Shown here in pieces: positions 1,847 through 21,720 of a stretch of DNA of 45,444 bases. The first letter of the stretch is position 1, and every line of letters starts with the position of its first letter. Below the pieces are notes generated by a model that worked only from the letters and a program-made list of their open reading frames with translations, was not told the origin of the DNA and ran no database searches. The stretch comes from an uncultured Flavobacteriaceae bacterium (GTDB lineage: Bacteria > Bacteroidota > Bacteroidia > Flavobacteriales > Flavobacteriaceae), in NCBI GenBank assembly GCA_938010765.1, contig CALLVX010000007.1:1-45444 (forward strand). The letters run 5' to 3'. The translations under genes were made by a program, and so were the position numbers.

Positions 1847-2060
1847 ACACAATATAGTTCGTAACCCGTATCCGTTTTTTATAACCGGACGAAAATTAAT
1901 CGGGAGCTATCATAAAATTATACATTCCTCCTATAGGTTAATAGCGATACTGCTAATTGACCAAGCGTAGCTATTCAAGCCACATCCCCCTTTATTTTGT
2001 TTTAAGCTAAGGTTCATCTAGAATAGGTACGAACGCGTGCCCAAAAACTTCAAAATTATT

Positions 2061-2621: not shown

Positions 2622-2770
2622 TACCAATACCCCTAACAATAAGTTTCTTATCATTTTTAAGATTCAGCGGGTCGGCCTTCAAGCCTACTTCTTTAGGGGA
2701 TCTTGGCTTACATTCGGCATGTACGGGCAAAAATGCGTATCAACATTCGTTATAACTAGATTATTTTCAA

Positions 2771-5572
2771 ATGGATCAGATAGAAAAATTAATAGAATCC
2801 ACTAAATTGTATTTAAGTTCCCTAATCTCTGAAGTTTCGGAATTGAACATTACCGATACGGATTTATCAACTCCTTTTCAAGAATTAGGAATCGATTCGT
2901 TTAGTGTATTGCAAGTCATAAAAAAATTGGAAGATGATTTTGGAACATTGCCAAAGACCCTGCTGTTTGAAAATTTTAACATAAACGATCTTAGTACTTA
3001 CTTTGTAAACAAACACGAAGAAGTAATCAGTGCTAAGTTTTCAAACCTACAACATTTTGTTGCCGCTCCAATACCATTTAAAGATCAGTTGGGTGATACT
3101 CTTGAAGTAAAACGAGAAAAGCTAAAAAATACTACCAAAGAACAGAAAGGGGAAATCGAGGCTAAAAGACCTGTTAAAAGGTCAATGAGGACACCAATAA
3201 TAGTTTTAGAAATAGAAGCCGTAGTACATCCGGAATTAAAGGATTGGTATGCTACCATGTTTACCAAATATAAGAATGAGGGGTCTGCCTCAAGGGGTAC
3301 AAGAAATATTGCACCCTACTTGTTTATTGGTAGTGAAAAGAAGGGGTATCTTAATTATAACAAGAACAACAACATCATATTGGTCTATGCATATACGGGG
3401 CCAAGGGACTATTTTACGGTAATTGCCCAAGAAATTGCTCAATACTGTATCGATAATGGTTTGGAAATTACCATACTCTCCGATTATGCCATTGAATCTG
3501 TTGGTGCCGATTCGTATTATTCTACTCCCTTTGGAATAATTTCAAGAATTGATAATCTAAAGGATTTTACGCTTCAAGGCAAGGCAATGCGCCGTTTGAG
3601 ATATCAAGTTTCAAAGTTCGAGAAATCAGGTAATTGCAAGACCGTTGAATACATTAATGGGACAAACAAAGAAACTGATAAAACTATTACGATATTAATT
3701 GACGAGTGGTGCGCTCCTAGGACCATGGTCAATCCACTCATTCATTTGGTGCGAGAAGAAATAAAGGTCGGTAAATTGAGTGCCGAGCATCGCCTTTTCC
3801 TAACCTATTTAGACAATGTATTACAAAACGCGATTCTGATCTCATCGTTGTCTTCGGAAATGAACGGATACCTGATGGATTTGGAATTTTACCCCAAAGA
3901 TATGCCGTTGGGGGGATTGGAATATGGTATCATTAAAATTATTGAAACACTGGCCGCTGAAGGGTGCGATATGCTTAGTTTAGGGGGTACCTATGGCTGT
4001 AAATTAGAGGAATCGAACAATGCCGATCCCGACATGGATAAGACATTGGAGTTTTTGCGAGAGAAGAAACTATTCAATGATGAAGGTAATTTGCAGTTTA
4101 AAAATAAGTTTCGCCCTGAACACCAAACTATTTTTATTTGTAGACCAAAATCTATCGGTAATGCTGACAATGTAACCGATGTGATCATGATGATTGCAGA
4201 TCCTTCCAAAACCAATGTCACGGAAGAAAATACATACACAAAACTATCGCTTGAAATCAAAGTAGAAGAAAAAAACACTGCGGTACCTGTTAAAATTGAC
4301 GTTCGGTCGGAAATTGGAGGTGAAAAGAACAATTTGACCAATGCGGATGAAGGAGTCATGATCGAAGGGGAACAACGATCCCTTTTATTGGCCAACTTCA
4401 ATTTCAATCCGCTTACCATTCCAGATAGCGAGCTAGCTTATAATCTAAAAACCGACTCTTGGGCACAGCTTGATTCGCCAGCAATAGATAAGCAATTGAA
4501 TTTCTTACATTCACAACTTTATCAACCCGTACATATTGAAGAAAGTTTACAAAAGCTATTTCCATTCTTACATCTTGCCTTTACTTCCTCTGGCCGTAAT
4601 GCAGAAAAAGCATTTTTTAAATCATGGACAAAAAAAGGAAAAGTAATTCAAAACTTACTTTTTCCCACCGCAATTTTTAGTCAAATTGAAAACGGCTTTT
4701 TGCCATTGGAATTGCCCCATGACACAGTGTTTGATTTGAAATCGGAAGAGATATTCAAAGGAAATTTAAAGTGGGACACATTTGAAGAACAACTTATAAA
4801 AGAGGCAAATTCAATTTCGTTGGTGGCAATAGAATTGTCTGACAATGCAGCAGGAGGTGCCCCTGTATCTTTGGGCCATTTAAAGAAGGTTAAAAAATTG
4901 CTTATCAAGTATTCCGTTCCATTGGTCATAGATGGTACCAGAGTACTTGAAAATGCCAAATTCATCATTGAACATGAAAAAGGATACGAAAGGAAAAGTC
5001 TATGGAAGGTTGCCAAGGAAATATTCTCGGTTGCAGACGCCGTATGGGTAAGTTTGGCCAAGGATTTTTGTGTGAACAAAGGCGGAATAGTCGCCACAAA
5101 TAACGAAGCACTTTTTAAGAAACTTCAAGAAGTCGTTCAAGATGAAGGTATTGGTCTTGATATCATTGATAAAAAACTCATTGCGCATTCGTTTGCCCAT
5201 CAAAACATCATTGAAAATCTGATTGTAGAAAGAATAAAAAATGTGCGGTCGATTAATGAGAAGTTGGCCAAGCATGGAATCCCAATTGTAAAACTAGCAG
5301 GGTCGCATTGCATCTTAATCGATGTAAAACAGCTTTCTCAATTTACACCATTCGAAAACCCCGTGGCTTCTTTCCTTGCCTGGATGTTTTTGAATACCGG
5401 AATACTGGGAGGCGCCCATAGCGCAGGGATGCAGAAAAACACGCACATAAATAATTTGGTGCGTTTATCAATCCCGATAGGATTGGAAAGAAATAAGGTA
5501 AATGAAATAAGTACCAAATTAATCGATTTGTTCGATAAGATGGAGAATATTCCTGAATTGGTCATCGCTGGG
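2771..5572 (+). other. ACP - DUF2156-like - beta-eliminating lyase block of PKS A (SH-type sulfur-insertion candidate)
   Basis: Residues 1-87 are an ACP with GIDSFS (Ser43). Residues 139-462 resemble the GNAT-fold DUF2156/LPG-synthase C-terminal family, with MRRLRYQVSKFEKSG at 273-287 and LGGTYG at 404-409. Residues 537-935 resemble tryptophanase/tyrosine phenol-lyase: SGRNAE (Gly608-Arg609) at the PLP phosphate site, IDGTRVLENA with Asp721 and Arg724, catalytic Lys764 in SLAKD, and Arg898 in LVRLSIP for the substrate carboxylate. The GDEAYAGS segment with the catalytic Tyr of tryptophanase and TPL is not recognisable. In leinamycin synthase LnmJ a DUF-SH pair uses a PLP lyase domain to cut a C-S bond of a cysteine adduct and leave sulfur on the polyketide; this block is the best match I know. 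The chemistry here is inferred. Confidence 0.75.
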
Positions 5573-8500
5573 AACACTTCAGAAACATCTTTAATGCCAG
5601 TTGCCAAGTTTAAATTAAAGGGTTACCATAATGTTGCAACTAATTTAATTCCAATACCGACTGGAAGTTCTGTTGCCCAAGAGCCAATGCATTCTGCTGA
5701 AAATAAGGACTACCTTACCGTCCCTGAGGTGGAAAAAGAGTCCAGTACGATTGGCAATGCTTCGGACACTAACAAAGAAGCATCCAAAGATATTGCAATC
5801 GTCGGGATGTCGGGGAGGTATCCGAAAGCGAAAAACTTGGATGAACTTTGGAACAATCTTTTGGAAGGTAAAGACTGTATCGAAACAATTCCTGAGGAGC
5901 GTTTGCAACAACGAAGCGCCAATCAGTTCTCAAAAAAATATCGCGGGGGTTTTCTGACGGACGTGGACAAGTTCGACTCCATGTTCTTTAACATTCCACC
6001 CGCTGTTGCCGAAATGTTTGATCCCCAAGAAAGACTGTTACTCGAAACGGCATGGGAATCGATAGAAGATGCCGGATATTACCCAGAAATCTTGACTCCC
6101 GATGGAGCTCCAAAAAACATCGGGGTTTTTGTAGGAGCGGTCTGGACCATGTACCAGATGATCGGGGCTGAAGAAAAGATGATTGGCCATGATACGAACC
6201 CAAATTCATTTCTGTGGAGTGTCGCCAATAGAATTTCATATTCCCTTAACCTATCGGGTCCCAGCCTCTCTGTAGATACAGCTTGTTCTTCGAGTATGAC
6301 TGCTTTGTACTTAGCTTGTGAGGCTATCTACAACGGGGAATGTTCAGGCGCTATTGTAGGGGGGGTCAATTTGGACTTACACCAAAGTAAATTTGACATT
6401 AACTCTTTTGGAGGAGCCTTATCACCAGATGGAGTCTGTCGTTCTTTTGGAAAAGGAGCAAATGGTTACGTAGCAGGAGAAGGGGTAGGGACTATTTTTA
6501 TAAAATCACTAGAACAGGCAGAAAAAGATGGCGACCATATCTATGGGGTCATTAAAAGTGTGTCGGTGAATCACGGAGGCCGAACAAGTGGTTATATGGT
6601 GCCAGACCCAAAGGCGCAAGCCAATTTGGTGCAGTCTGCATTGAAAAAAGCAGGTATCGATGCAAGAAGTTTGGGATATATAGAGGCGCACGGAACAGGT
6701 ACAGAACTGGGAGATCCTATTGAAATTGCCGGATTAACGACCGCTTTTGAGAAATATGCTGTTAAGAAACAAAGCTGTGCAATAGGCTCTGTAAAAACAA
6801 ATATTGGGCATTTGGAGGCGGCCGCAGCAGTAGTAGGTATTCAGAAGGTACTGCTACAAATGAAACATAAAACACTGGTGCCCTCCTTGCATTCTTCGGA
6901 ATTAAATGAGTTTATAGATTTTGAAAATTCTCCTTTTTATGTAGAGCAAAAGGTGGAAGGTTGGAAACCCAAAACGGTGGACGGCGTACAGTTTCCGCTT
7001 CGCGCAGGAATCAGTTCTTTTGGTGCCGGGGGAGCAAACGCCCATGTAATCATTGAATCGTACGAGCGGAAAACGAAGGAGCATCCCAAAGAAGGCCAGC
7101 CCAATTACCAGATATTTCCATTGTCCGCGGTAAAAGAGCACATCCTTCACGAATCTGCCATACGATTGCGTTCTTTTGTAGAAAAGGATATATCATTGGA
7201 TGTATCAAAACAGCTGAGCATAGATGATATTGGTCATACCCTTAGGATAGGGCGAAAATCGTTTGAACATAGGTTGGTAATACTTGCGGCTACCAAACAA
7301 GAGCTAGTAACGAAACTTTCCCTGTTTATTGAAGGAAAAAAGGATAATGGAATTCTAAAGGGAGCCGTTCAGAATGCAGGAAGTTTTACCCGACTATTAA
7401 ATAGCAGTGAAAGGAAGGCGTTTATTAAACTAGTATCCGAAAGTGGAGATCTTCAAAAACTCGGTCAGTTATGGATCGAAGGTATTACAAATGATTGGCA
7501 GGGTCTAAGTTCCTCAGTAAGGAATAAGCGGGTTCCCTTGCCCACCTACCCCTTTGCAGATAAGCGCCATTGGGTGGAACGAAAAGAAAATGTAGTAGGT
7601 GCTTCTTCAATTCAGTATCCATTGCTAGATACCAACGAGTCGACTTTTGAGCGTCAAATTTTCAAAAAAACGTTTCGCGATAACGAGTTCTTTATCTATG
7701 ATCATCTAGTGTCTGATATTCCTACCTTGCCCGGTGTGGCCTACCTTGATTTTGCTAGAAAAGCAGGTGAATTGGCGGCAGGCAGAAAGGTGAAATCTAT
7801 CAAGAACATTATATGGTTAAATCCGATATCGGTGGTTGATTCCGTGCCAGTCGATATTTGGATCGAGTTGATCCCTCAGGGAGAACAAGTAAAGTTCGAA
7901 GTTTACGGTAAAAATGGGGATGGGGTCAAGCAACTTCATTCCCAAGGTAGACTCGCATATTTCTCAGAAGAATCCCAACAATTTGAACCCGAATATATCG
8001 ATGTTAAGAGTATTCAAGAACGTTGTGTAAAAGTTTTAGATGGTAAAGATGCCTATCCTTTGTTCAAAACCTTGGGCTTAGGGTTGGGCCCAAGTTTTCA
8101 AGTGCTTCAAGAAGTATATAAAAATGAGGATGAAATGTTGGGGATTATGAAAATTCCGGATGTTTGTCTAAATGATTTTGAAGATTTCTTGCTGCACCCT
8201 TCAATTGTTGATGGGGCAGGGCAAACCGCCATGGCGGCCCACTTGTCCGATAGCGAAAAATCTGGAGAAATGTTCGTTCCATACTCATTTGGTGAAGTAG
8301 AAATACATAACCCCTTAACACCGACTTGCTACAGCTACATTCAAAAAGCAAACGAGCCCAACTCAAAGCTGTCCAAGGCAAACTTGATTATTCTAGACGA
8401 AACCGGAAAGGTGCTGGTGAAAATAAATGAATCCGTTGGGATACCGCTTACAGATATCCACGAGAAGTCTGATGAAGACACAATGAGGGCACTTCAAACC

Positions 8501-11500
8501 TCGGAAAAAGAGGAAGATGAGTTTTCTAAATTATATTACACACATGTATGGGAACCTTCGTCTATACTGATAAAAGAAAGCAGCGAAGCCAGTGTAGAAC
8601 ATATTTTAATTTTCGATACGGATGAAGCCTTCTACAATTCTTACAAGGAAAGACCAGAGACGAAAGGCAACAAAGTTGTATTGGTGCAACCGGGTCAAAG
8701 CTATGAAGAAAGCTCAAAACGGAATACTTATAAGGTACAACCCACTAGTATTAATGACCTAGTCAGACTTTTGGAATCTTTAGAAAAGAAGGAAATCAGG
8801 TTTAGTAAAATCTGCTATGCTTGGTCCAAGACACCGTTTCAACATGAAGTAACCTTTTTAAAAGAATCACTTGAAAAAGGAGTTTATTCATTTTTGTGCT
8901 TATGCCAATCATTGATCGGTAGTAAGGCAGACCATATGTTTCAATTAGTATATCTATACTATGGTTCAGAAGATGATTATCAGCCTCATAATGAAGCAGT
9001 AAGCGGTTTTGCAAAAAGTTTGCATTTAGAAAACTCCGATGTTATTTGTAAAACTGTTGAAATTCAGAGTAAGAAGATAGCGATCGCAAATGTTGTAAAT
9101 GTAGTTGATTTTGAATTCCGAAAAGAAACCAACGACGAGTTAGCTGTTCGTTATACCGCAGATGAACGATTCGTACGAAAACTGAAAAACATACATCCCT
9201 GGGCCAATGAAAAATTGTCGATATCGTCCCAGTTTGCACTTAAAGAAAGAGGAGTGTACTTAATTACCGGAGGTACCGGAGGATTGGGATTCATCTTTGC
9301 TGAATTTTTGGCAAAACAGTGCAAGGCAAAACTGATTCTTACGGGCCGGTCCGAGCTCTCCGAAGGGAAATTGGCCAAGATTAAAGAAATTGAGGCGTTG
9401 GGCTCAGAGGTTTTTTATGAACCTACCGATGTCTCCAATCCCGAGGAGATTTACAATTTACTAGCCAAAAGCAAGGCTAAATTTGGTGCTATCAACGGAC
9501 TTGTTCATGCTGCCGGTGTATTGCGAGATTCTAATATTAGGAACAAGACCATAGCCGAGATGCGTGCAGTTTTTGCGCCAAAGGTTTTCGGAACATTTTA
9601 TCTCGACGAAGCAACTAAAAATGAAAACCTTGATTTTTTCGTGACCTTTTCTTCAATGGCCGCGGTGGGAGGAAACATGGGGCAAAGTGATTATTCGTAT
9701 GCAAACCACTTTATGGACACGTTCGCAAGGAGGCGTGCAAATCTTCAAAAAACCGGAGGAAGATCAGGGAAATCTTTAAGCCTGAATTGGTCAATCTGGG
9801 CCGATGGCGGAATGAAGCTCGATGCCCAAATGGAGCTGTTTTTCAAAAATAAGTTGGGAATACGACCACTTAGTCTTGATACGGGAATTGGAGCGTTCTG
9901 CAATGGATTGCTCTCAGACGAAACCCAAATAGTAGTGGCGGAAGGGATGCAGGAAAGAATGGAAATTGCATGGGGTATTAGAAAGGAAGAGGTGGCTTCA
10001 GAAGTCGAAGAACCAAAAACGTTGGCGCCCATATCACCTTTGCCAACTGCAGATGCCAATGACGAAGCTATCGCAGCGGTGCAACAAGGGCTGATCCAGA
10101 TTGCGATGGATTTTTTAAAATTGGAAGAAGACGATGTATCCATAGATAAAATATTGCTTGATATCGGTTTCGATTCTATCGGCTTGGCGTCGTATGCAAA
10201 TGCCCTCAATGACAAATACCGTCTAGAAACTATTACGCCGGTATTATTTTTTGAGTATCCATCTATACGAGAAATTGCCAAATATCTTACAGCTGAACAT
10301 CATGCTGAGGTGATGGAAGCACATAGTATGTCTTCTGCTGCTGGCAGGGATTCCGAACAAATGACAAAACCAAAGACGCAAGTGGTAGTTAAAGAGGAAG
10401 TTGCTTCAGGGTTTTCAGGAATAAACAAGGGGTGGAATGCCAAGGCTTTTGACCAAAAAGAAATGGGTATTTCTTCAAAATCGGGTATTTCTGCCGACTC
10501 ACGTTTTGTAGATTGTCCGATTGCCATCGTAGGCGTTGGAGGTGTTATGCCCAAATCGCGCAATATGGAGGAATATTGGGAAAATTTGAAGAATGGAGAA
10601 AATATGATTTCCGTAATTCCAAGAGACAGATGGATATGGGAAGATTTTGATGGAGATCCAATAACCGAAAAAAATAAGACGAACTCCAAATACGGAGGCT
10701 TTATTGAAGATGCGGATAAGTTTGACCCACTATTTTTTGGTATTTCCCCACGAGAGGCAGAAATGATGGACCCGCAACAACGCGTATTTCTTGAAACCGT
10801 ATGGAGTACTATCGAAGATTCTGGGTATAAAGTTTCAGATCTTTCGGGGACAAAGACAGGACTTTTTGTGGGAGTAGCGGTTCATGACTATAGTGATTTG
10901 ATGAATACTCTAAACATTGAGTTGGATGGCTATACCGCTTCTGGTAATTCTCACTGCATGTTGGCCAACCGTATTTCGTTTTTATTAAACCTGCGTGGGC
11001 CAAGTGCGCCCATTGATACGGCCTGTTCAAGTTCTTTGATCGCAATTCACCGTGCCATAGAATCTATTCACACCGGAAGTAGTGATATGGCCATCGTAGG
11101 AGGGGTACAATTAATGATGACCCCTGCGGCCCATATTTCGTTTGGCATGGCGGGAATGTTGAGTAGCGATGGCAAATGCAAGACGTTTGATAAAGATGCC
11201 AACGGCTATGTTAGAGGTGAAGGTTCGGGTGCGGTTTTTCTAAAACCTTTGGCAAAAGCGGAAGCGGATAATGATCAAATATATGCTGTGATAAAGTCTA
11301 CGGCCGAAAATCATGGAGGCAGGGCTACGATGTTAACGGCGCCCAATCCGCATGCGCAATCCGAATTGTTGGTGGAAGCTTATGAAAAAGCACAGATTGA
11401 CCCCACCACGGTCGGGTACGTGGAATGTCACGGTACAGGAACCAGTTTGGGAGACCCAATAGAAATAAGGGCTTTGATCAAATCTTTCAAGGAGCTATAT

Positions 11501-13327
11501 CAAAAATTCGATCAACCTGCGCCAAAAACACCCCATATAGGTTTAAGTTCAGTAAAAACCAACATTGGTCACCTGGAAACGGCCGCGGGGATTTCTAGCT
11601 TTTTGAAAGTGGTGCTTGCCATAAAACATAAACAAATACCCGCCTCACTTCATTTTGAGAACTTAAACCCACATATTGATCTGTCCGGGAGCCCTTTCCA
11701 TATTATTGATAAAACAACGGCTTGGAGGGCGATTAAAGGAAAAGACGGAAAAGAAGTTCCACTAAGGGCAGGTGTTAGCTCCTTTGGTTTTGGCGGAGCC
11801 AACGCACATGTGGTACTAGAAGAGTATAGAGCACCGCTTAAACAAACCTCCGTCGCATTCGAAGGGCCTTATTCATTTGTTCTTTCGGCAAAAAATAAAG
11901 AAAGACTTCCCGTATATGCACAATCTATTTTAAACCATATTGAGAAAAAGGAGGTGGAATTGTTTAGTTTGATCTATACCTTACAGGTAGGAAGGGATGC
12001 AATGGCCGAAAGACTTGCATTTACCGTGAACTCGCTCTCCGAATTAAAACAAAAACTAAAGGATTATTGTACCGGGAGCGCCTCGAACGAATCTGTATTT
12101 GTAGGCAAGGTAAGTCGTAAGTTAGACGACGCTTTGAAGGCAATTTCAATTGATGATTTGATTGCGAACCATCAGTTTTCGGAAATTCTTAAGGTTTGGG
12201 TACAAGGGGTAGATGTAGACTGGAACCGATTTTATGGAGAAGTCAAACCTAAAAGAATAAACATACCGACCTATCCCTTTTCGAAGGAACGTTATTGGTT
12301 TGAATTTGATTCCAATAATGCAAGAGTGAAAGAACAGGCCGTCCTTCATCCTCTTTTACATAAGAACACCTCGGTACTGACACAACAAAGTTATAGCTCC
12401 TCGTTCAGTGAAAATGACTTCTTTCTCATTGACTATCAAAAAGCGAAGGAAAAGACCCTGTCTGTCGGGGGCTATCTAGAAATGGCATATGAAGCGGTAC
12501 TGCATGCCACTTCTACCGGTTCCAAATTTGTTCCCATGGAATTTTCCAATGTTCAATGGAGTACCCCATTTTCACTTTCAGACAGTAAGACGATATCTAT
12601 AGCACTGTTCGAAGAAGATGGCGATAGAGTGGCCTTTAAAGGGTTTGGTATACAAGACGATGGAGAGCAAATCCATTATGAGGGAACGGTGAAACTTATG
12701 ACCATCGGTAAACCGCAAAAAATAAGTCTAGAATTACTTAATAAACAGATGAACTTTGGAGAGATACCTCAAAATGGAACATTTGGTTCTTTCGAGCAAA
12801 TGGCATCGAGAAATTCCACCAAGCCGGAAGTTACCTCCTTTGCTATGGGACACAATCAAACGCTAACGCATGTAGTACTGACCGGCAATTTGGAAAATGA
12901 CGCCACCACCTTTGTTTTGAACCCGACGATTGTTGAATGTTGCCTCGCAACGGCGGGTCTATTGATAGATACTGACAAATACAGTGATCATCCTCCATTC
13001 CCGACCAAGCTTGAACAATTAAAAGTGGTATCGCCATGTGTAGCGGAAATGTTTGTTTGGACCCGTCATTCAAGGGGTAAAGAAGTGAGTGATCATAAGG
13101 CGGTATTGGATGTGGATATTTTTGATAAACAAGGAAATATCTGTGTTTCTTTAAAATCCTTGACATTTATTAATGATAGTTCCGATCTGAATGCTCCTAT
13201 GGAATCTGGCGACTTATCCGGTTATTTGGCGTCTGTATACGATTTGTTGCCTAACGGAGGGGCTGAAAATTTGCTGGAAAATATCGACAATGAGTTTGAA
13301 AAATTGTTGGATGGTGATTTTAGTTGA
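2771..13327 (+). CDS. trans-AT type I PKS 'PKS A': ACP - DUF2156-like - PLP lyase (SH-like) - KS-DH-KR-ACP - KS-DH0
   Basis: A 3518-residue cytoplasmic megasynthase starting at ATG 2771. Domains in order: ACP (1-87; phosphopantetheine Ser43); DUF2156-like domain (139-462); tryptophanase-type PLP domain (about 537-935; Lys764); KS1 (about 1005-1425; Cys1172, His1307, His1347); DH (about 1617-1895; His1645, Asp1814); KR (about 2160-2350; Tyr2308); ACP (2430-2505; Ser2469); KS2 (about 2580-3000; Cys2752, His2887, His2934); degenerate DH (about 3190-3470); and a 25-residue acidic C-terminal tail that may be a docking element. There is no AT, so malonyl loading must be in trans. The KR carries the second Asp of the B-type motif (AGVLRD). 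Starting with a bare ACP and ending with KS-DH0 means both ends are halves of split modules. The downstream partner is probably PKS C, whose first domain is an ACP. The lyase pair is the unusual part. Confidence 0.95.
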   Translation: MDQIEKLIESTKLYLSSLISEVSELNITDTDLSTPFQELGIDSFSVLQVIKKLEDDFGTLPKTLLFENFNINDLSTYFVNKHEEVISAKFSNLQHFVAAPIPFKDQLGDTLEVKREKLKNTTKEQKGEIEAKRPVKRSMRTPIIVLEIEAVVHPELKDWYATMFTKYKNEGSASRGTRNIAPYLFIGSEKKGYLNYNKNNNIILVYAYTGPRDYFTVIAQEIAQYCIDNGLEITILSDYAIESVGADSYYSTPFGIISRIDNLKDFTLQGKAMRRLRYQVSKFEKSGNCKTVEYINGTNKETDKTITILIDEWCAPRTMVNPLIHLVREEIKVGKLSAEHRLFLTYLDNVLQNAILISSLSSEMNGYLMDLEFYPKDMPLGGLEYGIIKIIETLAAEGCDMLSLGGTYGCKLEESNNADPDMDKTLEFLREKKLFNDEGNLQFKNKFRPEHQTIFICRPKSIGNADNVTDVIMMIADPSKTNVTEENTYTKLSLEIKVEEKNTAVPVKIDVRSEIGGEKNNLTNADEGVMIEGEQRSLLLANFNFNPLTIPDSELAYNLKTDSWAQLDSPAIDKQLNFLHSQLYQPVHIEESLQKLFPFLHLAFTSSGRNAEKAFFKSWTKKGKVIQNLLFPTAIFSQIENGFLPLELPHDTVFDLKSEEIFKGNLKWDTFEEQLIKEANSISLVAIELSDNAAGGAPVSLGHLKKVKKLLIKYSVPLVIDGTRVLENAKFIIEHEKGYERKSLWKVAKEIFSVADAVWVSLAKDFCVNKGGIVATNNEALFKKLQEVVQDEGIGLDIIDKKLIAHSFAHQNIIENLIVERIKNVRSINEKLAKHGIPIVKLAGSHCILIDVKQLSQFTPFENPVASFLAWMFLNTGILGGAHSAGMQKNTHINNLVRLSIPIGLERNKVNEISTKLIDLFDKMENIPELVIAGNTSETSLMPVAKFKLKGYHNVATNLIPIPTGSSVAQEPMHSAENKDYLTVPEVEKESSTIGNASDTNKEASKDIAIVGMSGRYPKAKNLDELWNNLLEGKDCIETIPEERLQQRSANQFSKKYRGGFLTDVDKFDSMFFNIPPAVAEMFDPQERLLLETAWESIEDAGYYPEILTPDGAPKNIGVFVGAVWTMYQMIGAEEKMIGHDTNPNSFLWSVANRISYSLNLSGPSLSVDTACSSSMTALYLACEAIYNGECSGAIVGGVNLDLHQSKFDINSFGGALSPDGVCRSFGKGANGYVAGEGVGTIFIKSLEQAEKDGDHIYGVIKSVSVNHGGRTSGYMVPDPKAQANLVQSALKKAGIDARSLGYIEAHGTGTELGDPIEIAGLTTAFEKYAVKKQSCAIGSVKTNIGHLEAAAAVVGIQKVLLQMKHKTLVPSLHSSELNEFIDFENSPFYVEQKVEGWKPKTVDGVQFPLRAGISSFGAGGANAHVIIESYERKTKEHPKEGQPNYQIFPLSAVKEHILHESAIRLRSFVEKDISLDVSKQLSIDDIGHTLRIGRKSFEHRLVILAATKQELVTKLSLFIEGKKDNGILKGAVQNAGSFTRLLNSSERKAFIKLVSESGDLQKLGQLWIEGITNDWQGLSSSVRNKRVPLPTYPFADKRHWVERKENVVGASSIQYPLLDTNESTFERQIFKKTFRDNEFFIYDHLVSDIPTLPGVAYLDFARKAGELAAGRKVKSIKNIIWLNPISVVDSVPVDIWIELIPQGEQVKFEVYGKNGDGVKQLHSQGRLAYFSEESQQFEPEYIDVKSIQERCVKVLDGKDAYPLFKTLGLGLGPSFQVLQEVYKNEDEMLGIMKIPDVCLNDFEDFLLHPSIVDGAGQTAMAAHLSDSEKSGEMFVPYSFGEVEIHNPLTPTCYSYIQKANEPNSKLSKANLIILDETGKVLVKINESVGIPLTDIHEKSDEDTMRALQTSEKEEDEFSKLYYTHVWEPSSILIKESSEASVEHILIFDTDEAFYNSYKERPETKGNKVVLVQPGQSYEESSKRNTYKVQPTSINDLVRLLESLEKKEIRFSKICYAWSKTPFQHEVTFLKESLEKGVYSFLCLCQSLIGSKADHMFQLVYLYYGSEDDYQPHNEAVSGFAKSLHLENSDVICKTVEIQSKKIAIANVVNVVDFEFRKETNDELAVRYTADERFVRKLKNIHPWANEKLSISSQFALKERGVYLITGGTGGLGFIFAEFLAKQCKAKLILTGRSELSEGKLAKIKEIEALGSEVFYEPTDVSNPEEIYNLLAKSKAKFGAINGLVHAAGVLRDSNIRNKTIAEMRAVFAPKVFGTFYLDEATKNENLDFFVTFSSMAAVGGNMGQSDYSYANHFMDTFARRRANLQKTGGRSGKSLSLNWSIWADGGMKLDAQMELFFKNKLGIRPLSLDTGIGAFCNGLLSDETQIVVAEGMQERMEIAWGIRKEEVASEVEEPKTLAPISPLPTADANDEAIAAVQQGLIQIAMDFLKLEEDDVSIDKILLDIGFDSIGLASYANALNDKYRLETITPVLFFEYPSIREIAKYLTAEHHAEVMEAHSMSSAAGRDSEQMTKPKTQVVVKEEVASGFSGINKGWNAKAFDQKEMGISSKSGISADSRFVDCPIAIVGVGGVMPKSRNMEEYWENLKNGENMISVIPRDRWIWEDFDGDPITEKNKTNSKYGGFIEDADKFDPLFFGISPREAEMMDPQQRVFLETVWSTIEDSGYKVSDLSGTKTGLFVGVAVHDYSDLMNTLNIELDGYTASGNSHCMLANRISFLLNLRGPSAPIDTACSSSLIAIHRAIESIHTGSSDMAIVGGVQLMMTPAAHISFGMAGMLSSDGKCKTFDKDANGYVRGEGSGAVFLKPLAKAEADNDQIYAVIKSTAENHGGRATMLTAPNPHAQSELLVEAYEKAQIDPTTVGYVECHGTGTSLGDPIEIRALIKSFKELYQKFDQPAPKTPHIGLSSVKTNIGHLETAAGISSFLKVVLAIKHKQIPASLHFENLNPHIDLSGSPFHIIDKTTAWRAIKGKDGKEVPLRAGVSSFGFGGANAHVVLEEYRAPLKQTSVAFEGPYSFVLSAKNKERLPVYAQSILNHIEKKEVELFSLIYTLQVGRDAMAERLAFTVNSLSELKQKLKDYCTGSASNESVFVGKVSRKLDDALKAISIDDLIANHQFSEILKVWVQGVDVDWNRFYGEVKPKRINIPTYPFSKERYWFEFDSNNARVKEQAVLHPLLHKNTSVLTQQSYSSSFSENDFFLIDYQKAKEKTLSVGGYLEMAYEAVLHATSTGSKFVPMEFSNVQWSTPFSLSDSKTISIALFEEDGDRVAFKGFGIQDDGEQIHYEGTVKLMTIGKPQKISLELLNKQMNFGEIPQNGTFGSFEQMASRNSTKPEVTSFAMGHNQTLTHVVLTGNLENDATTFVLNPTIVECCLATAGLLIDTDKYSDHPPFPTKLEQLKVVSPCVAEMFVWTRHSRGKEVSDHKAVLDVDIFDKQGNICVSLKSLTFINDSSDLNAPMESGDLSGYLASVYDLLPNGGAENLLENIDNEFEKLLDGDFS
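5780..10300 (+). other. PKS A extension module KS1-DH-KR-ACP
   Basis: KS1 has an intact Cys-His-His triad. The DH keeps His1645 and Asp1814, but the HxxxGxxxxP motif reads HLVSDIPTLP, with Asp in place of Gly. The KR has GGTGGLG and a Tyr/Lys pair. The predicted product is an alpha,beta-unsaturated thioester, or a beta-hydroxy thioester if the DH variant is slow. Confidence 0.8.
10511..13324 (+). other. PKS A terminal half-module KS2-DH0
   Basis: KS2 is complete. The following DH fold has lost its catalytic residues: Tyr3222 stands where the His should be (LIDYQKAKEKT), the Pro-Gly turn is absent, and the HPxxxD motif reads NPTIVE. No KR or ACP follows. The half-module therefore should extend the chain and leave a beta-ketone, using an ACP on another protein. 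Confidence 0.75.
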
Positions 13328-13536: not shown

Positions 13537-14952
13537 ATGCTTACACTGCGCACACTTGTTCTATTTTTCTTATTACTATTTTGTTCGTCGATCCACGGCC
13601 AAACAACAGATGAAACTAAAAAAACGGGCGATTCGATCAAAGGCATTGAATTGGGTATGTTAGATGGATTAATGGATCAAAAAGACCCTTTCCCAGGATT
13701 TGTAGATGAAGAAATCGGAAATGACACCACAAGTACGAATGGGTCTTTTTGGGATGAATATATATTCGACCCTGCGGCGTTGGGTGTCAGTTATGAATTG
13801 ACTTATAAATTTACCAAACCAGATGAGACCATAAAAAACAGAATGGCTTTTCGTTTGGAATATTCCAAATTTCTGTTTAATAGTTTTTATCTGCATCTAG
13901 ATGCAAAGTCTTTCACTTTCCTTAAAAACGATAGTAGAAGTAGACCAATAACCTATTATTCCAATGATGAGCCCAAAGAAAAGGGGTTTGCCTTTGGTTC
14001 TATTACACGAAACGCGTTCCTACAATATAGTTTTGGGAAGGCCAGCGTTAAAATGGGCATTCAGACATTGGCTTGGGGAGAGTCTGACTTTGCTGCCGTT
14101 ACCGATGAGATAAATCCATTCGATTTTCGAGATCCATTAAACTTGAATATTGATGAACTGCGCTTAGGGCAGTTGATGGTTGCGTTAAGCCTGTATACAT
14201 CCTTTGGTGACTGGAATGTTTTTTTTGTGCCCGATCCGAGATTTAATGAATTACCCAAAGAAGGTACAAGGTTCTATGTAGATCCTTTTGAGGGAAGAGA
14301 TGTTACATTTCAAGATGATGATAACGGAAACCTTTTCGAATATGGGGTACGATGGCAAAAGACATTCGGAAAAAGCGATGTAAGTTTAATAGCAACAAGC
14401 TTGATCGACAATACGATACAACAACAGCAAGTTAGTGAAACTTTGATTTTAGAGCGTAAAAAAAGATTTTCTACCCTAGGAACTACCTTTAATTATGCCA
14501 TAGGGAACCTGCTTGTGCGAGGAGAAGCCGCCATAAAGTTTTCCAAGATGTACAACAATTCGGCTTTACAGCTTATCGAGCGAAATGGGATCGATGCGAC
14601 AGTGGGTTTTGAATATGCTCCCAATAGCGATACAACTGTTGGATTAGAGTTGGTAAATAACCATATTATCGATTGGGACGAAGCTATTTTAGGAGTCCCT
14701 AGAAATAACTACACCGTCTTTTTTTTGGCAACAAAACAGCTTCTGAAAAACAACTTGTCTTTAAGCTATATATCTATGTTTAATGGGCCTTACACCACTT
14801 TTTTCAACCTGCTTTCCGGTTCATATAAACTAAATGATAACATTACTTTGTCACTAGATACGATTATTCCTACGACGGAAAACGAGCGCAGTTCCTTTTA
14901 TCAATTTAGGGAACAACAACATCTCGCTTTTAAGGTGCAATATTTATTTTGA
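13537..14952 (+). CDS. outer-membrane beta-barrel protein (putative export partner)
   Basis: 471 residues with a clear N-terminal signal peptide (hydrophobic LVLFFLLLFCSS, cleavage likely near residue 22 just before QTTD). The rest is dominated by alternating hydrophobic/polar strands with many aromatics, and the chain ends in Phe (FKVQYLF), the usual C-terminal signal for BAM-dependent insertion. It resembles DUF1302-type barrels, which are often encoded beside an MMPL/RND permease and a LolA-like protein in other phyla; I cannot confirm the family without a search. Both such partners are in this locus (22152-25632). A role in moving the polyketide or a lipid-like intermediate across the outer membrane is inferred. 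The 209-base gap before it holds no gene or clear terminator. Confidence 0.7.
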   Translation: MLTLRTLVLFFLLLFCSSIHGQTTDETKKTGDSIKGIELGMLDGLMDQKDPFPGFVDEEIGNDTTSTNGSFWDEYIFDPAALGVSYELTYKFTKPDETIKNRMAFRLEYSKFLFNSFYLHLDAKSFTFLKNDSRSRPITYYSNDEPKEKGFAFGSITRNAFLQYSFGKASVKMGIQTLAWGESDFAAVTDEINPFDFRDPLNLNIDELRLGQLMVALSLYTSFGDWNVFFVPDPRFNELPKEGTRFYVDPFEGRDVTFQDDDNGNLFEYGVRWQKTFGKSDVSLIATSLIDNTIQQQQVSETLILERKKRFSTLGTTFNYAIGNLLVRGEAAIKFSKMYNNSALQLIERNGIDATVGFEYAPNSDTTVGLELVNNHIIDWDEAILGVPRNNYTVFFLATKQLLKNNLSLSYISMFNGPYTTFFNLLSGSYKLNDNITLSLDTIIPTTENERSSFYQFREQQHLAFKVQYLF

Positions 14953-15045
14953 CAACCGCATTCGACACATCGTCTAACAAGACATATCAAGACCAAATCC
15001 ACCCCCAGGCAGCAGTCTATTCCAACTCATTTTAAAACACGATAT

Positions 15046-16803
15046 ATGCAAACACTGGAGAATGAAATAGCAGAGAAGATCTTATCGAAAAAAATCGAAA
15101 AAAAGGAGGCGATCAAACTTTTTGATGGTTTGTCGGAGACCGATAAGTTACAATTGATCACAAAGATCAAGTCCAAGTTATTGGATGCTACGTCCCTTAC
15201 TAAAAGCAGTCGTATTTCGGCCTCTAGGCTAAAGCCAATAGACCAAAGAGATCTAGAGGACCGTCATAGGGCATATATCAAAGAGCTCGCCAAGGAGTAT
15301 CAGAAGTTCGTACCCAAATCAAGAGAGAACATTCCCAAGAATCACTTCCATTTTGTGGATCAAAGAAGAAATTTTCATTTGATCAAGGAAATAAAGAAAA
15401 TGCACTTTCAGATCACTTATGAGAAGGCCGAAGGAGCCTATGTCCATGATATTGATGGTAATAAATACATTGATATTTCCGGAGACATGGGAGTCAATAT
15501 TTTTGGACACAAACCTCCTTTTCTCGTAAAGGCGTTGAAGGAAGCGATCGACCGGGGCATCCCATTAGCGGGGTATTCCGAAACCATCAACGAAACATCT
15601 AAAATCATCAGTGAGTTAACCGGCCATGATCGGGTCTTGTTTACACAGTCGGGAACCGAGGCGGTGGTCGTTGCTACTAGAATTGCACGAGCCGCAACGA
15701 ACAAGAAAAAAATCGTCTTGTTCGATGGGGCGTACCATGGGCTGTCGGACAATGTCATGGCCATGAGGGATATGCAGGGAAATAGTCTTGCCGCTGGTCC
15801 CGGAATGCTGCAGGAATTCGCCGATCAAATCATTGTTTTGAAGTATGGGGATAAAGAATCGCTCGATTTTGTTGAAAACCATTCGGACGAAATCGCCGGT
15901 GTTTTGGTAGAACCCGTGCAATCAAGGCATATTTATAATAAGCCCATTGAATTCTTGAAAGAATTGAGAAACATCACGATAGAGCACAATGTTCCTTTGA
16001 TTTTCGATGAGATGATCACTGGTTTTCGGGTAGGCCCTCAAGGAGCACAAGGTGTTTTTGGAGTCTTACCGGACATGGTCACCTATGGGAAAATTCCGGG
16101 TGGCGGTCTACCTACGGGCGTAGTCGTTGGTTCTTCGGAATACATGGATTTAATAGATGGTGGTACTTGGGAATTTGATGATGATTCCATGCCCAAATCC
16201 AAAAGAGTGGGGATGGGCGGAACGCATTCGCAAAACCCCTTAAAAGTTGCCGCGGCATATGCAACCATGAACGAGATAAAGAAAAGAACTGCCAACTGCC
16301 AAAGTTGTAGTGTTTTCTCGAATCAATGTGAAGGCCTTTATTGCAAGCTTAACAACCGTACTACCAGAATGGTCGAGGAACTGAATTCTTACTTTTTAGA
16401 GAACAACCTTCCGATAACCATAGATCATTTTGGTTCCCTGTTCCGTTTTAGGTATATCGATAGTTATTGGGGAATAACCGAAGCGCTCATGTTCATCCTA
16501 TTACGAATGCACGGTATTGAGACAAATATTCAAGGAAACTGCTTTTTGACAACGGCACATACCGATACCGATATAAAAAAGGTGATTGCTGCGGTCAAAA
16601 AGAGTTTGAAAATACTCATTAAAGAAGGATTCTTCTATGAAGTGAAAATTGAAGAAATAGCGTCGGTAACAGATAAGCCTGGAGATGCGAAACCCATCGC
16701 TACCGGAACAACGGCGAGTAAGCATGTAACAAATATTGATAACTCTCAAATTCAGAAACTGAAAGAGCATCTGATAAGTGATTTAAAAAGATTTGATCAA
16801 TAA
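15046..16803 (+). CDS. PKS-associated class III (GSAM-like) aminotransferase
   Basis: 585 residues. This is a fold-type I PLP aminotransferase of the glutamate-1-semialdehyde aminomutase-like group used as AMT domains in PKS/NRPS systems. Visible marks: IDGNKYIDIS, the GHKPPF turn, TQSGTEAVVVATR, FDGAYHG, Asp321 in FDEMITGFR, and Lys349 in TYGKIPGGGLP as the PLP Schiff-base lysine. Residues 70-140 match the conserved segment found just ahead of PKS AMT domains (HRAYIKELAKEY ... EKAEGAYVHD). It is free-standing rather than fused. It ends 17 bases before PKS C, whose first ACP is predicted to carry a beta-keto chain, so reductive amination of that ketone is the likely task. Four cysteines at 418, 421, 428 and 433 (CX2CX6CX4C) form an unusual insert. 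The last 60 residues are a poorly conserved extension. Confidence 0.88.
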   Translation: MQTLENEIAEKILSKKIEKKEAIKLFDGLSETDKLQLITKIKSKLLDATSLTKSSRISASRLKPIDQRDLEDRHRAYIKELAKEYQKFVPKSRENIPKNHFHFVDQRRNFHLIKEIKKMHFQITYEKAEGAYVHDIDGNKYIDISGDMGVNIFGHKPPFLVKALKEAIDRGIPLAGYSETINETSKIISELTGHDRVLFTQSGTEAVVVATRIARAATNKKKIVLFDGAYHGLSDNVMAMRDMQGNSLAAGPGMLQEFADQIIVLKYGDKESLDFVENHSDEIAGVLVEPVQSRHIYNKPIEFLKELRNITIEHNVPLIFDEMITGFRVGPQGAQGVFGVLPDMVTYGKIPGGGLPTGVVVGSSEYMDLIDGGTWEFDDDSMPKSKRVGMGGTHSQNPLKVAAAYATMNEIKKRTANCQSCSVFSNQCEGLYCKLNNRTTRMVEELNSYFLENNLPITIDHFGSLFRFRYIDSYWGITEALMFILLRMHGIETNIQGNCFLTTAHTDTDIKKVIAAVKKSLKILIKEGFFYEVKIEEIASVTDKPGDAKPIATGTTASKHVTNIDNSQIQKLKEHLISDLKRFDQ

Positions 16804-16820: not shown

Positions 16821-19800
16821 GTGGCAGAATCAAATATACTTGTACAGGTAAAAAATATAGTTTCCAAAACACTGAAAATTTCTTTGGAAAAATTAGATGT
16901 TGATGCCGATTTCGACAATTTTGGTGTAGACTCTATCATAGCCATGGAATTGATGTCGAATCTTTCAAAGGAAATGGATATCTCCATTACCCCGGCACAG
17001 TTTACCGAGGTGAATTCGATTAAGGAATTGGCAGACTCAATCGAAAAATTGAAAGAGACCGAAAACAAAGATGAGATTAAGGTATCATCTATCCAAACAA
17101 GTCAAAAGCAAAAAACAGTCAAGAAAACCCTCGACATCCCGGTCCAGAGCTCCTCAAGGCAACGCCCAGGAACAAGGCCTTCTAGAAATAGTACCAGAAT
17201 CGGCATACAAGAGCCATATAAAAAGGTATTGGATAAAGTACATCAAGAATTTTCCATTGATTTGCGGTATAGAAAATTTCTGTCTATCGAGGAAATCGCA
17301 GATACCTTGGTTACGGGCCATCTTAATGAATTGCTGTCGTATTACAAGATACTTGAAGAAACCATTGATGTGCACAAATTCAATCAAAACGATACGCGGT
17401 CGGCACTCGGTGCGGATGAGATTTCCGAAACCCATTTGACCGACATAGCTATTGTGGGTATGAGTTGTAATTTTCCAGATGCTCCGGATCCAGATAGTTA
17501 TTGGAATAATTTAATAGCGAAAAAAAACAGTATTCGAGAAATACCTGAATCACGATGGAATTGGAAAAATTATTATTCCAAGGATACGGTTGATGGTAAA
17601 ACGAATTCGAAATGGGCCGCTTTAATTGAAGACCATGACCGTTTCGATGCAAAGTTTTTCCAGATTGACGGCGAAGAAGCGGTTTTGATGGATCCTCAAG
17701 AACGCTTACTGCTGCAGGAGGTGTATAAATCATTTCAAGATGGAGGCATCAATCCGGCAGAATTAAAAGGAAGTAATACCGGTGTATTTGTTAGTTATGA
17801 ATATTCGGAATACGAACATTATTTAAGAAACAACATTGACCAACTTGAACTAAGCAAAAACAAACCATTTTTCTCTTCGTCTAGCCCAACGTACTATTTG
17901 GCGAACCGACTTTCTTTTTTGTATGATTTTAACGGCCCCAGCGAATCCTTTAATGTTAATTGTGCAGGTTCGGCAGTGGCGATCAACAGGGCCTATCATT
18001 CATTGTTAAATGAGGAAAACGATATGGCCGTGGTCGGTGGTGTTTCGTTGAACCTATTTGCAGAAGACTATATTGCACTTTCTAAATACGGCATGTTATC
18101 ACCCGATGGTACTTGCGCCGTATTTGATGACAAGGCGAATGGGTTTACTCGGGGAGAAGGCGTGGCCTCTGTAGTTCTGAAAAGATTGGCAGATGCTGAA
18201 AAAGACAATAATAAGATCTATGGTGTAATTAAAAGCAGCAATCAAAATAATAGGGGTAAGGCGAGATTCATGCAAGAAATAGATACAGAATCAATTACTG
18301 ATGTAATTAGTCATTGTTACGAAAAAGCAGCTATTGAGCCGGCAAAAATAAACTATATAGAGGTAGATGGGTATGCCACCAAATGGGGTGACTCATTTGA
18401 GTATGAAGGAGTTAAAAAAGTGTTTGGCGAGGTAGGCGCCAAAGAAAAAAGCTGTGCGCTGGGCAGTTTAAAGGGTAATATAGGAAACCTAGAATCGGTA
18501 AATGGATTGGCCAGTCTTATAAAAATGGCACTTTCCATGCATCACAAGAAGTTTCCGGCTACCATCTCAAAAAAGGAAACGAATACCTTCATAGATATTG
18601 AAAACCCCTCTCACCCTCTTTATCTGGCAGAGTCTGTGATTCCTTTTGATACTATTCGTCAGGATAAAAACCATTTGATCAGAGCAGGAATCAATGCTTT
18701 CGCCGATACCGGGGTAAATGTTCATATTCTATTAGAAGAATACGGCGAGAAAAAAAATAGCAAAACAGCCGAAATACCATCAGAACCGCAATTGTTCTTG
18801 TTGTCGGCAAAGGATACGAATAGACTGATGGAGAGTGTTCAGGACCATATCGATTACCTCTCCAATTCCGACGATACCTCCTTTACCAATATAGTCTACA
18901 CCTCTCAGTTGGGGCGCGAAGCTATGGAAGAACGATTAGCGATTATTACTTCTTCGGGACAAGATTTGGTGAGAAAATTAAGCATAGTAAAGAACAATCT
19001 GGATCAGAAAAGAAAGGGATTGGAAAAAGAAGGAATATTTATTGGATCGGTAACCGAAGCAAGTGAAAATCCACTGAACGGAATTTTCACTGATGATATG
19101 GCCCAAATGTTGGTGGCTCAAACAAAACAACAGAATCGTTGGCAGAAGTTGGCCAAATTATGGATAATCGGTTTTGATATTCCTTGGCGGTTGGTTTGGG
19201 AAAATATGCCTGTACGCCCGGTCTCTTTGCCACTCTATCCGTTCTATAAGGATAGATATTGGGCAGAAATAGTGGGTGACGGTAAACCTTCTTTAAATTT
19301 GAACGGTAAGGAACCAAAAGCAACAAAAGTATCCACGGTTTCAAAAAAGGCGACCACCATGGAAGCGCAATGGTTTTTTTACCGGTCCGAAGACAAATCA
19401 TATGATGAAAGTTCTTTAAGTTCAATAGAAAAGATCGAGTTGTTCTTACAGCAGCAAATAGCACTTCTACGAAAAAAATCGATTCATGAAATTGACCCAA
19501 AAAAGAGTTTTTTAGACATAGGTTTAAATTCCATTGATATCGGAACTTTTGTTTCCAATACGATGAACCTTCTCAATATAACCTTATCTCCCGCAATCCT
19601 GTTTAATAATGCGGATATCGAGAGCCTTGCGAGATATTTAAAAGAGACCTATCCAAAAAAATTGGCTAGTCTATCGGTAACTAACGACAAGAAAAAAGCA
19701 GCGAACGAAAAAAGTAGAGCGGGCTCACGATCTTCTATCATTGAAACAGAAGACTTGTCGAGTACGGATAACGTGCTTGTACCGTTGCAAACAAAAGGAA

Positions 19801-20606: not shown

Positions 20607-20757
20607 GTGAGAAGTAGTATACGACTCGGAGGTTAAACTTTTTTAAATTCCAATATAAAAATGTTCTTTTTCATCGAATTTTCATAATTTTCTTACTTGG
20701 TAGCGATTAAACTTGGTAAGAAAAAATAGAAAAAAAAGTAAGGTTAAAAGAGTTAAA

Positions 20758-21720
20758 ATGACGAGAGTAGAAAATGGAAGTATGAAAGCAATCGTATGTG
20801 CAAAATATGGACCGCCCGAAGTATTGGAAATGAGAGAGGTAGAAAAGCCAACGCCAAAAGATACGGAGGTGTTGATAAAAGTATATTCGACCACTACACA
20901 TTTTGGTGATACACGGATACGAAGAGCCATTCCACTTTTGGTTGTGAGGTTGTTGTTTGGTCTATTCAAGCCCAAAAAAAACCTTGTGCTCGGTATAGAG
21001 TTGTCGGGAGTTGTAGAGGCAATTGGAAAAGATGTAAAATCGTTTAAACCCGGAGATCGTGTATTTGGCTTAACAGGCTTTGGATTGGGCGGGTATGCAG
21101 AATATTGTTGCTTGCCCGAAAAAGTAAAGGATGGAACTCAGGAAAGAAAAGGAATCGTAATAAAAATTCCAGATAGCTTATCTATTTCAGATGCGGCGGC
21201 TATACCCTCCGGCTCCCTGACGGCTTTAAAAAACCTGCAAAAGGCAAAAATAAGCGAGCATAAAAAAATACTGATAAATGGAGCCTCGGGAAGTCTTGGA
21301 ACTTATGCCGTGCAATTGGCAAAGTTCTACGGTGCGGAAGTAACGGCTGTTTGTAGTGCAAAAAATTTTAAATTGGTAAAGTCTTTAGGAGCCGATAAGG
21401 TAATCGATTATACCAAAGAAGACTTTACGAAAAAAACGGATACATACGATATAGTGTATGATGCAGTAATGAAAACAGGACGTAGAAAATCCAAAAAAGT
21501 ATTAAATAAAAACGGAATTTATTTAAACAATTATTGGCTTTCAAGTATTAAGGAAGCAGATTTTATTTTTATCAAAAAGTTAATCGAAGAAAACCATATA
21601 TTTCCGATAATTGATAAAACCTACCCACTTAGTGAAGCCGTAGAAGCACATAGATATGTTGATACGGAGCGCAAAAGAGGAAATGTCTTATTAAAAGTAA
21701 CCGATGAATACCCGGTTTAA
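20758..21720 (+). CDS. NAD(P)H-dependent MDR-family reductase (quinone-oxidoreductase-like)
   Basis: 320 residues of the zinc-free medium-chain dehydrogenase/reductase superfamily. N-terminal GroES-like part: KPTPKDTEVLIKV, then GIELSGVVEAIGK and FKPGDRVFGLTG. Rossmann part: INGASGSLGTYAVQLAK, the NADP-binding glycine motif, then GADKVIDY. The family reduces activated double bonds or quinones. I start at ATG 20758; ATG 20782 (MKAIVCAKYGPPEVL) is equally typical of the family, and an upstream TTG at 20713 adds only a lysine-rich leader. It lies about 150 bases after PKS C. A trans-acting enoyl reduction or tailoring reduction is possible, but dedicated trans-ERs of trans-AT systems are normally flavoproteins of a different family, so its substrate is unknown. 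Confidence 0.85.
   Translation: MTRVENGSMKAIVCAKYGPPEVLEMREVEKPTPKDTEVLIKVYSTTTHFGDTRIRRAIPLLVVRLLFGLFKPKKNLVLGIELSGVVEAIGKDVKSFKPGDRVFGLTGFGLGGYAEYCCLPEKVKDGTQERKGIVIKIPDSLSISDAAAIPSGSLTALKNLQKAKISEHKKILINGASGSLGTYAVQLAKFYGAEVTAVCSAKNFKLVKSLGADKVIDYTKEDFTKKTDTYDIVYDAVMKTGRRKSKKVLNKNGIYLNNYWLSSIKEADFIFIKKLIEENHIFPIIDKTYPLSEAVEAHRYVDTERKRGNVLLKVTDEYPV

Follow-up and report, generated by a model that had tools for sequence, protein, structure and literature searches.

The first three domains of a polyketide synthase (PKS A) from an uncultured Flavobacteriaceae bacterium probably form a sulfur-insertion unit. The window analysed here, 45,444 nucleotides, is an entire contig (C7; CALLVX010000007.1 of assembly GCA_938010765.1), and PKS A occupies a single open frame in it (2771-13327, + strand, 3518 aa). 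Pfam gives the domain order ACP-DUF-SH-KS-DH-KR-ACP-KS-DH, with PP-binding at residues 15-77 (E 5.6e-10), LPG_synthase_C (formerly DUF2156; PF09924) at 262-457 (E 3.7e-14) and Beta_elim_lyase at 588-856 (E 4.8e-28), all above the Pfam gathering scores. An earlier note on this DNA had read positions 2771-5572 as an ACP, a DUF2156-like domain and a PLP lyase, and the block was recovered in that order and at that position. The DUF and SH domains are homologous to those of leinamycin-type synthases, and the ACP is probably a counterpart of the second ACP found there. It is likely that thiocysteine or cysteine would be added to the chain on this unit, that SH would leave -SSH or -SH and that the following ketosynthase, KS1, would extend the product. 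The group most likely installed mid-chain is -SSH (or -SH). Leinamycin is an antitumour compound into which sulfur is put by a three-part cassette of the ACP-DUF-SH type. The features of PKS A are as follows.

2771..13327, + strand: PKS A, ACP-DUF-SH-KS-DH-KR-ACP-KS-DH, 3518 aa (Pfam; architecture common to 15 fetched loci)
2795..3022, + strand: ACP1, putative carrier of the sulfur-insertion unit; phosphopantetheine Ser43 at codon 2897-2899; like the second leinamycin-type ACP
3185..4210, + strand: DUF (DUF2156/LPG_synthase_C), double GNAT, MprF/Fem fold (Pfam, alignment, AlphaFold2 model, Foldseek/VIA, profile)
4373..5575, + strand: SH domain, homologue of PLP-dependent C-S lyases; PLP Lys764 at codon 5060-5062
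5801..7120, + strand: KS1, immediately following SH; clusters with the seven further post-SH KS tested, apart from other KS
7631..8470, + strand: DH1 (Pfam)
8576..9850, + strand: KR, structural and catalytic halves (Pfam)
10061..10315, + strand: ACP2 (Pfam)
10487..11830, + strand: KS2
12161..12970, + strand: DH2, probably degenerate, the HxxxG motif not being seen

The SH and DUF domains

The best sequence match of the SH domain in the PDB was 9cen (207 bits), an entry titled as the thiocysteine lyase (SH) domain of guangnanmycin A biosynthesis, while the best tyrosine phenol-lyase (TPL) scored 152 bits. When an AlphaFold2 model of the domain (pLDDT 92.9, pTM 0.91) was searched with Foldseek, 9cen took ranks 1 and 2 (E 5e-38) and the first TPL followed at E 1.2e-32. 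The TM-scores were nearly equal (0.88 to 9cen, 0.84-0.88 to TPL), so the fold alone would not decide between SH and TPL. Sequence identity was 33% to 9cen and 30-34% to the leinamycin-type SH domains. The closest NCBIfam models for the PLP part were tryptophanase and TPL, all below their curated cut-offs (TPL 158.8 bits against 720.7; tryptophanase 170.4 against 285, 154.6 against 750 and 98.6 against 825.8). In an unrooted tree, in which long branches were flagged, the 24 SH rows (the window, 14 non-leinamycin, 8 leinamycin-type and 9cen; L031, with a stop inside SH, was left out) split from nine tryptophanase/TPL rows with support of 100/100. The non-leinamycin SH domains did not form one group in this tree, and the leinamycin-type domains were placed next to those of Gammaproteobacteria, weakly supported at 83/73.

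Active-site residues were compared across 24 SH domains, namely those of the window, 15 non-leinamycin loci and 8 leinamycin-type loci. Positions follow TPL numbering, and the residues are named by their roles in TPL (PLP, carboxylate or phenol side). Lys257, Phe123, Asn185, Asp214, Arg217 and Ser254 are conserved in all 24. The carboxylate-binding Arg404 is present in 23, the exception being L031, which is cut by the stop, and the window has both Lys257 and Arg404. Arg100 is found in 21 and is replaced by Gln in the three acidobacterial rows. The phenol-side residues Arg381 and Lys256 are missing from every one of the 24. The roles of these residues are stated in part in PMC3870968. SH thus shares its fold and its PLP-binding and carboxylate-binding residues with TPL and tryptophanase, but TPL is a free enzyme with Arg381 and Lys256, whereas SH lacks both and is part of a synthase. 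The sub-cut-off scores, the absent phenol-side residues and the split in the tree led us to reject a plain tryptophanase or TPL. A transaminase or threonine aldolase identity was likewise rejected, as an L-allo-threonine aldolase matched only at E about 0.09. The PDB sequence match, the Foldseek ranking and the tree place the PLP domain with SH and support its assignment as a homologue of the thiocysteine lyase domain, in line with the SH-type C-S lyase suggested in the earlier note.

Whether the LnmJ-type DUF belongs to the same family as the one here had been left in doubt by the earlier note. The DUF of PKS A is 31-42% identical to the eight leinamycin-type DUFs and falls with them in one alignment of 24 rows with 51 invariant columns, and on this sequence comparison it is of the same family. 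An AlphaFold2 model (pLDDT 85.7) has a double-GNAT fold of the MprF/Fem aminoacyl-tRNA-transferase type (Foldseek/VIA), and a profile comparison finds sequence kinship as well. Fem proteins and the C-terminal domain of MprF, the aminoacyl-phosphatidylglycerol synthase, move amino acids from tRNA to peptide or lipid, whereas the partners of the DUF here are an ACP and a C-S lyase. It is conceivable, though decidedly unlikely, that the DUF is truly aminoacyl-tRNA-dependent and would draw cysteine or its persulfide from Cys-tRNA(Cys), passing the sulfur to the ACP-bound chain. To our knowledge, no aminoacyl-tRNA-dependent acyl transferase of this fold adds a thiol to an alkene, and this counts against the reading of the block as a sulfur-insertion unit. 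Conjugate addition of thiocysteine by the DUF has been proposed in the leinamycin-family literature, in the parts available to us without a mechanism.

The carrier protein and the assembly line

Leinamycin-type modules contain two ACPs (PMC7618002). In weishanmycin, the first alone is used by the KS, HMGS and ECH1 and the second alone by the TE; which of the two takes the sulfur is left open in the relevant part of that paper. The single ACP of the non-leinamycin modules was compared with these in a set of 90 ACPs, of which 24 are DUF-adjacent (16 non-leinamycin and 8 leinamycin-type). All 24 have Phe at Ser+1, directly after the carrier serine, and none of the 66 others does. Tyr at Ser+24 occurs in 8/8 first leinamycin-type ACPs, in 10/10 Trp-flagged ACPs and in 2/48 ordinary ones, and in none of the 24 DUF-adjacent ACPs.

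In trees of all rows the DUF-adjacent ACPs clustered together, with support of 96/85 in a tree of 88 rows and of 97/85 in one of 90 full-length rows. In the 88-row tree the eight first leinamycin-type ACPs fell with 12 ACPs of the window, contig C85 of the same genome and Kordia, among them the Trp-flagged ones (97/83). The program flagged the union of the new ACPs and the second leinamycin-type ACPs as long branches meeting. When L033, L038 and four other long rows were removed, five mid-line leinamycin-type ACPs entered the group and the 22 rows were together in 10% of bootstrap trees. Holding the 22 rows together was not rejected by the AU test (p-AU 0.614), while a constraint placing the new ACPs with the first ACPs of leinamycin-type modules was weakly rejected (p-AU 0.041). 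The residue at Ser+1 is a firmer sign than the tree. On these sequence features the lone ACP of the 16 modules probably falls outside the beta-branching kind; it resembles the second ACP of leinamycin-type modules, a likeness that favours sulfur insertion on the second ACP (pathway b of PMC7618002).

The remainder of the window carries two further synthases and six other genes.

13537..14952, + strand: DUF1302 protein, present in the five clusters read through
15046..16803, + strand: class III aminotransferase, in several clusters of the family
16821..20606, + strand: PKS B, ACP-KS0-ACP-TE, chain release; its KS has the Cys but lacks both His
20713..21720, + strand: zinc-type alcohol dehydrogenase-like protein
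22152..24740, + strand: MMPL/RND transporter
24727..25632, + strand: LolA-like/DUF1329 outer-membrane lipoprotein-sorting protein
25976..27253, + strand: FAD/GMC-type oxidoreductase
28237..45444, + strand: PKS C, probable start of the line, an AprA MT2-like domain followed by ACP/KS modules; truncated at the contig end

The AprA MT2-like domain that opens PKS C is probably a loading region. The end of the window and the start of C85 have exactly 139 bp in common. Kordia has one extra module copy at this junction, so an assembly collapse and a shorter line are both possible. C85 encodes four PKS frames, an HMGS, two enoyl-CoA-hydratase-type proteins, an AT, a metallo-beta-lactamase-fold protein, a free KS-like protein and a second AT. 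The HMGS is 91% identical to that of Kordia algicida and, when a separate HMGS for the sulfur module was looked for, it was the sole match found in this genome, which is about 87% complete. HMGS, ECH1 and ECH2 are encoded in 5/5 of the clusters read through, and the Trp-flagged ACPs elsewhere in the line would be the obvious clients of the HMGS found.

The last protein on the upstream side (C85:20322-24383) reads DH-KR-ACP-KS, and its terminal KS has an intact Cys-His-His. By colinearity this KS would pair with ACP1, which suggests a split module, with the KS on one protein and ACP-DUF-SH on the next and with neither KR nor DH; the protein order is taken from the architecture. In four genomes (the window's own and those of Kordia algicida, Lysobacteraceae bacterium 2PB and Pseudomarimonas) the block is preceded by a KS-DH-DH-KR-ACP module; Fulvivirga imtechensis differs in having KR-ACP-KS-DH ahead of ACP-DUF-SH. 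The eight post-SH KS tested (of 16) formed one group (SH-aLRT 100), which fits an unusual substrate, although inheritance of the whole cassette would give the same grouping.

Compared with module 8 of LnmJ, GnmT and WsmR, the DUF and SH are homologous, stand in the same order and follow an ACP of the second kind, and in both cases the module belongs to a trans-AT line and appears to lack KR and DH. The leinamycin-family module is KS-ACP-ACP-DUF-SH-TE and ends the line (PMC7618002). This terminal arrangement is absent here: the KS is on a separate protein, there is one ACP and no TE, and SH is followed by KS-DH-KR-ACP-KS-DH, so that the chain would go on to KS1. An HMGS gene lies directly after the DUF-SH module in all eight leinamycin-type loci fetched.

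Distribution and earlier records

Named genomes were scanned by means of an SH alignment of two rows, and at least 23 loci emerged, a lower bound because the scan used two peptide patterns. Fifteen are non-leinamycin loci that share ACP-DUF-SH-KS-DH-KR-ACP-KS, with L031 interrupted in places, including the SH frame. They come from three Kordia, three Fulvivirga, an Aquimarina, a Bacteroidales MAG, three Acidobacteriota, Lysobacter sp. ISL-50, Pseudomarimonas, Steroidobacter and Lysobacteraceae bacterium 2PB. The other eight, seven from Streptomyces/Kitasatospora and one from Pseudoduganella, are labelled leinamycin-type on account of two ACPs before DUF-SH (8/8) and an HMGS after it (8/8); a TE after SH was looked at in three of them. 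As the loci were found by SH, the search did not predetermine the DUF or the ACP. The order ACP-DUF-SH in 15/15 fetched non-leinamycin loci, and DUF-SH after two ACPs in 8/8 leinamycin-type loci, led us to reject a chance pairing; with the window included, the DUF adjoins SH in 16/16 non-leinamycin cases.

The block is rare. A DUF profile matched 1/396 other genomes sampled from the window's family, and the match in that genome (G770) lies at the coordinates of the Kordia algicida locus, Kordia being listed as Flavobacteriaceae, which supports the family assignment of the window; the profile matched none of 296 other genomes in the phylum of L022. A search for the block (E up to 1e-20) gave no match in nine genomes of the window's genus, and of 59 relatives besides the window's own genome six matched, each time in the lyase part only and in frames of 459-529 aa. 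In a phylum sample (E up to 1e-45, at most two candidates scored per genome) 2/394 other genomes matched, mainly in the lyase part; the frames were of 464 and 466 aa, the latter with stops within the aligned stretch.

The layout is already on record. Kordia algicida A9ECY5 and Lysobacter F8TUA6 were tabulated in 2013 as CP-DUF2156-PLP3-KS-KR-CP-KS(-KR) (PMC3870968 Table 2), the same layout as that of PKS A; the part of that paper available to us gives a product or an assay for neither. From species and layout we infer that A9ECY5 is the protein of L017, whose SH is 59% identical to that of the window; the Kordia algicida cluster is also collinear with the window and C85. Three non-leinamycin DUF-SH families followed in 2021 (PMC8479088 section 9), with DUF-SH in varied modular contexts, termed highly homologous and with taxa not named in that section, and the single ACP and missing TE of such modules have been noted (PMC7618002). 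The earlier note had compared the DUF-SH pairing with that of the actinobacterial leinamycin family; the homology holds, but confinement to that family does not, given the records from Kordia algicida and Lysobacter (PMC3870968, PMC8479088). PKS A is another member of a known group. In the passages of open literature consulted we saw no ACP comparison, DUF fold or split-module map of this sort, and no product assigned to a Bacteroidota or Lysobacter DUF-SH cluster; supplements and subscription papers were outside the scope of this survey.

Proposed reaction and alternatives

The terminal KS of the last synthase upstream would deliver the growing chain to ACP1. The DUF may hold the acyl-ACP together with the amino acid, thiocysteine (or cysteine), and attach the sulfur of the latter at an electrophilic chain carbon. 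SH would then capture the adduct through its free amino acid end as a PLP aldimine and eliminate at C-beta, releasing pyruvate and ammonia and leaving -SSH (or -SH) on the chain. The sulfur-bearing chain would be extended by KS1 and released by PKS B, which we infer to end the line.

The earlier note had proposed Michael addition to an unsaturated thioester followed by beta-elimination. This stands as one option but not as the sole route, since the module as mapped lacks KR and DH and the ACP is of the type outside beta-branching in weishanmycin. Three electrophiles are candidates: a branch made through HMGS, as happens in leinamycin, an enoyl group passed on and a gamma,delta-enone. With the leinamycin-style acceptor, HMGS and ECH1 would turn the chain on ACP1 into a beta-branched alpha,beta-unsaturated thioester, and sulfur would go to C-3 to give a quaternary centre. 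The lack of KR and DH in the module as mapped, like the published module 8 layout, argues for this, as do the HMGS, ECH1 and ECH2 genes of every cluster read through, and module 8 ACPs of the leinamycin type are also without the Trp flag (PMC7618002). We nonetheless regard it as doubtful, as ACP1 is like the second ACP, which in weishanmycin is not competent for KS, HMGS or ECH1 (PMC7618002), the Tyr at Ser+24 is missing from all 16 non-leinamycin DUF-adjacent ACPs, and the AU test weakly rejects a grouping of ACP1 with the first ACPs. A point against the sulfur-insertion reading as a whole is that leinamycin module 8 makes its acceptor by means missing from this module, which has one ACP, unlike the beta-branching kind, and a genome with one HMGS found, for which other ACPs are the obvious clients. 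The enone, which we hold tentatively as a real possibility, fits an ACP of this kind. The upstream KR and DH would make an alkene, the terminal KS would add a ketide, and thiocysteine would attack C-5 of a beta-keto-gamma,delta-unsaturated thioester; alternatively, the enoyl chain would be passed unextended and sulfur would go to C-3. The KS-DH-DH-KR-ACP module that precedes the block in four genomes is consistent with this, and KR-ACP-KS-DH of Fulvivirga imtechensis could yield the same enone, but the scheme is drawn purely from domain order and would depend on the actual state of the DH domains. Because the catalytic residues of the terminal KS are intact, the variant without extension is not indicated.

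The PLP domain might instead cleave plain cysteine adducts and leave a thiol rather than a hydropersulfide. We know of no residues that read the second sulfur, and the modest identity to leinamycin-type SH also leaves room for this, as does the first assay of LnmJ-SH, which was as a cysteine lyase (PMC8479088). It is nevertheless rather unlikely, as the closest characterised relatives (GnmT-, LnmJ- and WsmR-SH) prefer the thiocysteine adduct 50- to 106-fold in vitro on mimics (PMC8479088 section 8). It is very improbable that the block has decayed, or is kept as a structural remnant, and has no lyase activity: the apparently degenerate DH2 at the end of PKS A indicates that decayed domains do occur in this protein, but the PLP and carboxylate contacts of SH are retained across rows from Bacteroidota, Acidobacteriota and Pseudomonadota, and the DUF is always beside it. 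The slimmest chance is given to a tryptophanase or TPL fused to the synthase by accident and acting on free amino acids. The fold and profile class are indeed TnaA/TPL, but the scores and missing phenol-side residues described above speak against it, as do an SH domain as first match and the constant partnership with the DUF.

For the preferred reading as a sulfur-insertion unit, the single-ACP module offers a simpler system for testing the site of sulfur insertion, and the MprF/Fem fold gives a concrete starting point for the DUF mechanism. If the DUF were truly aminoacyl-tRNA-dependent, a modular polyketide synthase would contain a tRNA-dependent step, sulfur insertion, both here and in the leinamycin family. 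Relatives occur in cultured Kordia and Lysobacteraceae strains and would represent a mid-line, single-ACP version of a reaction known in detail only from Streptomyces. If the unit works as proposed, the products would be unexplored polyketides with a reactive persulfide or thiol mid-chain.

Region upstream of PKS A

Two genes were noted ahead of the operon:

2037–2621, NusG-like gene, directly 5′ of the operon
557–1000, gene for a BLUF blue-light sensor, 5′ of the cluster

A NusG-like gene also precedes PKS A in all eight of the Bacteroidota loci fetched (L017–L021, L023, L024 and L030). This recurrence, together with the position before the operon, suggests that the gene at 2037–2621 is likely a cluster-specific antiterminator.

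Contig junction and probable start and release of the assembly line

The regions considered here were as follows:

28237–29900, PKS C N-terminal region: an AprA MT2-like methyltransferase domain and a stretch with no Pfam match, ahead of the first ACP
C85 (L061) 2–6676, module combining an in-line ECH domain with Trp-flagged ACPs in tandem
16821–20606, gene for PKS B, with the KS at residues 209–600 of the protein

The stretch with no Pfam match may be GNAT-like, as in AprA, and the start of PKS C is predicted to be an unusual loading region. At the other end, following a KS, window positions 45306–45444 are identical to bases 1–139 of C85, an exact 139 bp overlap of the two contigs; Kordia algicida has an extra repeated module at the matching site. 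The C85 module, with its Trp-flagged tandem ACPs, is the likely client of the single HMGS.

In the KS of PKS B a Cys is retained and both catalytic His positions are occupied by Asp and Asn, and the K. algicida counterpart has the same residues. The loss of both His in the two proteins indicates that this is probably a non-extending KS ahead of release.

Among the related loci, a leinamycin-type end module (ACP-ACP-DUF-SH-TE, followed by HMGS) was found on a small contig of the betaproteobacterium Pseudoduganella buxea (L033, about 8300–15140). In an acidobacterial MAG (L031, 10001–11141) a stop interrupts the SH frame, which may reflect assembly error or decay.

Accessory genes

13537–14952, DUF1302 protein
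22152–25632, MMPL transporter and LolA-like protein

All three are common to the clusters of K. algicida, Fulvivirga imtechensis and Pseudomarimonas; the Lysobacteraceae 2PB cluster includes DUF1302, and the stretch read there stops shortly beyond it. Together, these proteins may mediate export to the outer membrane.
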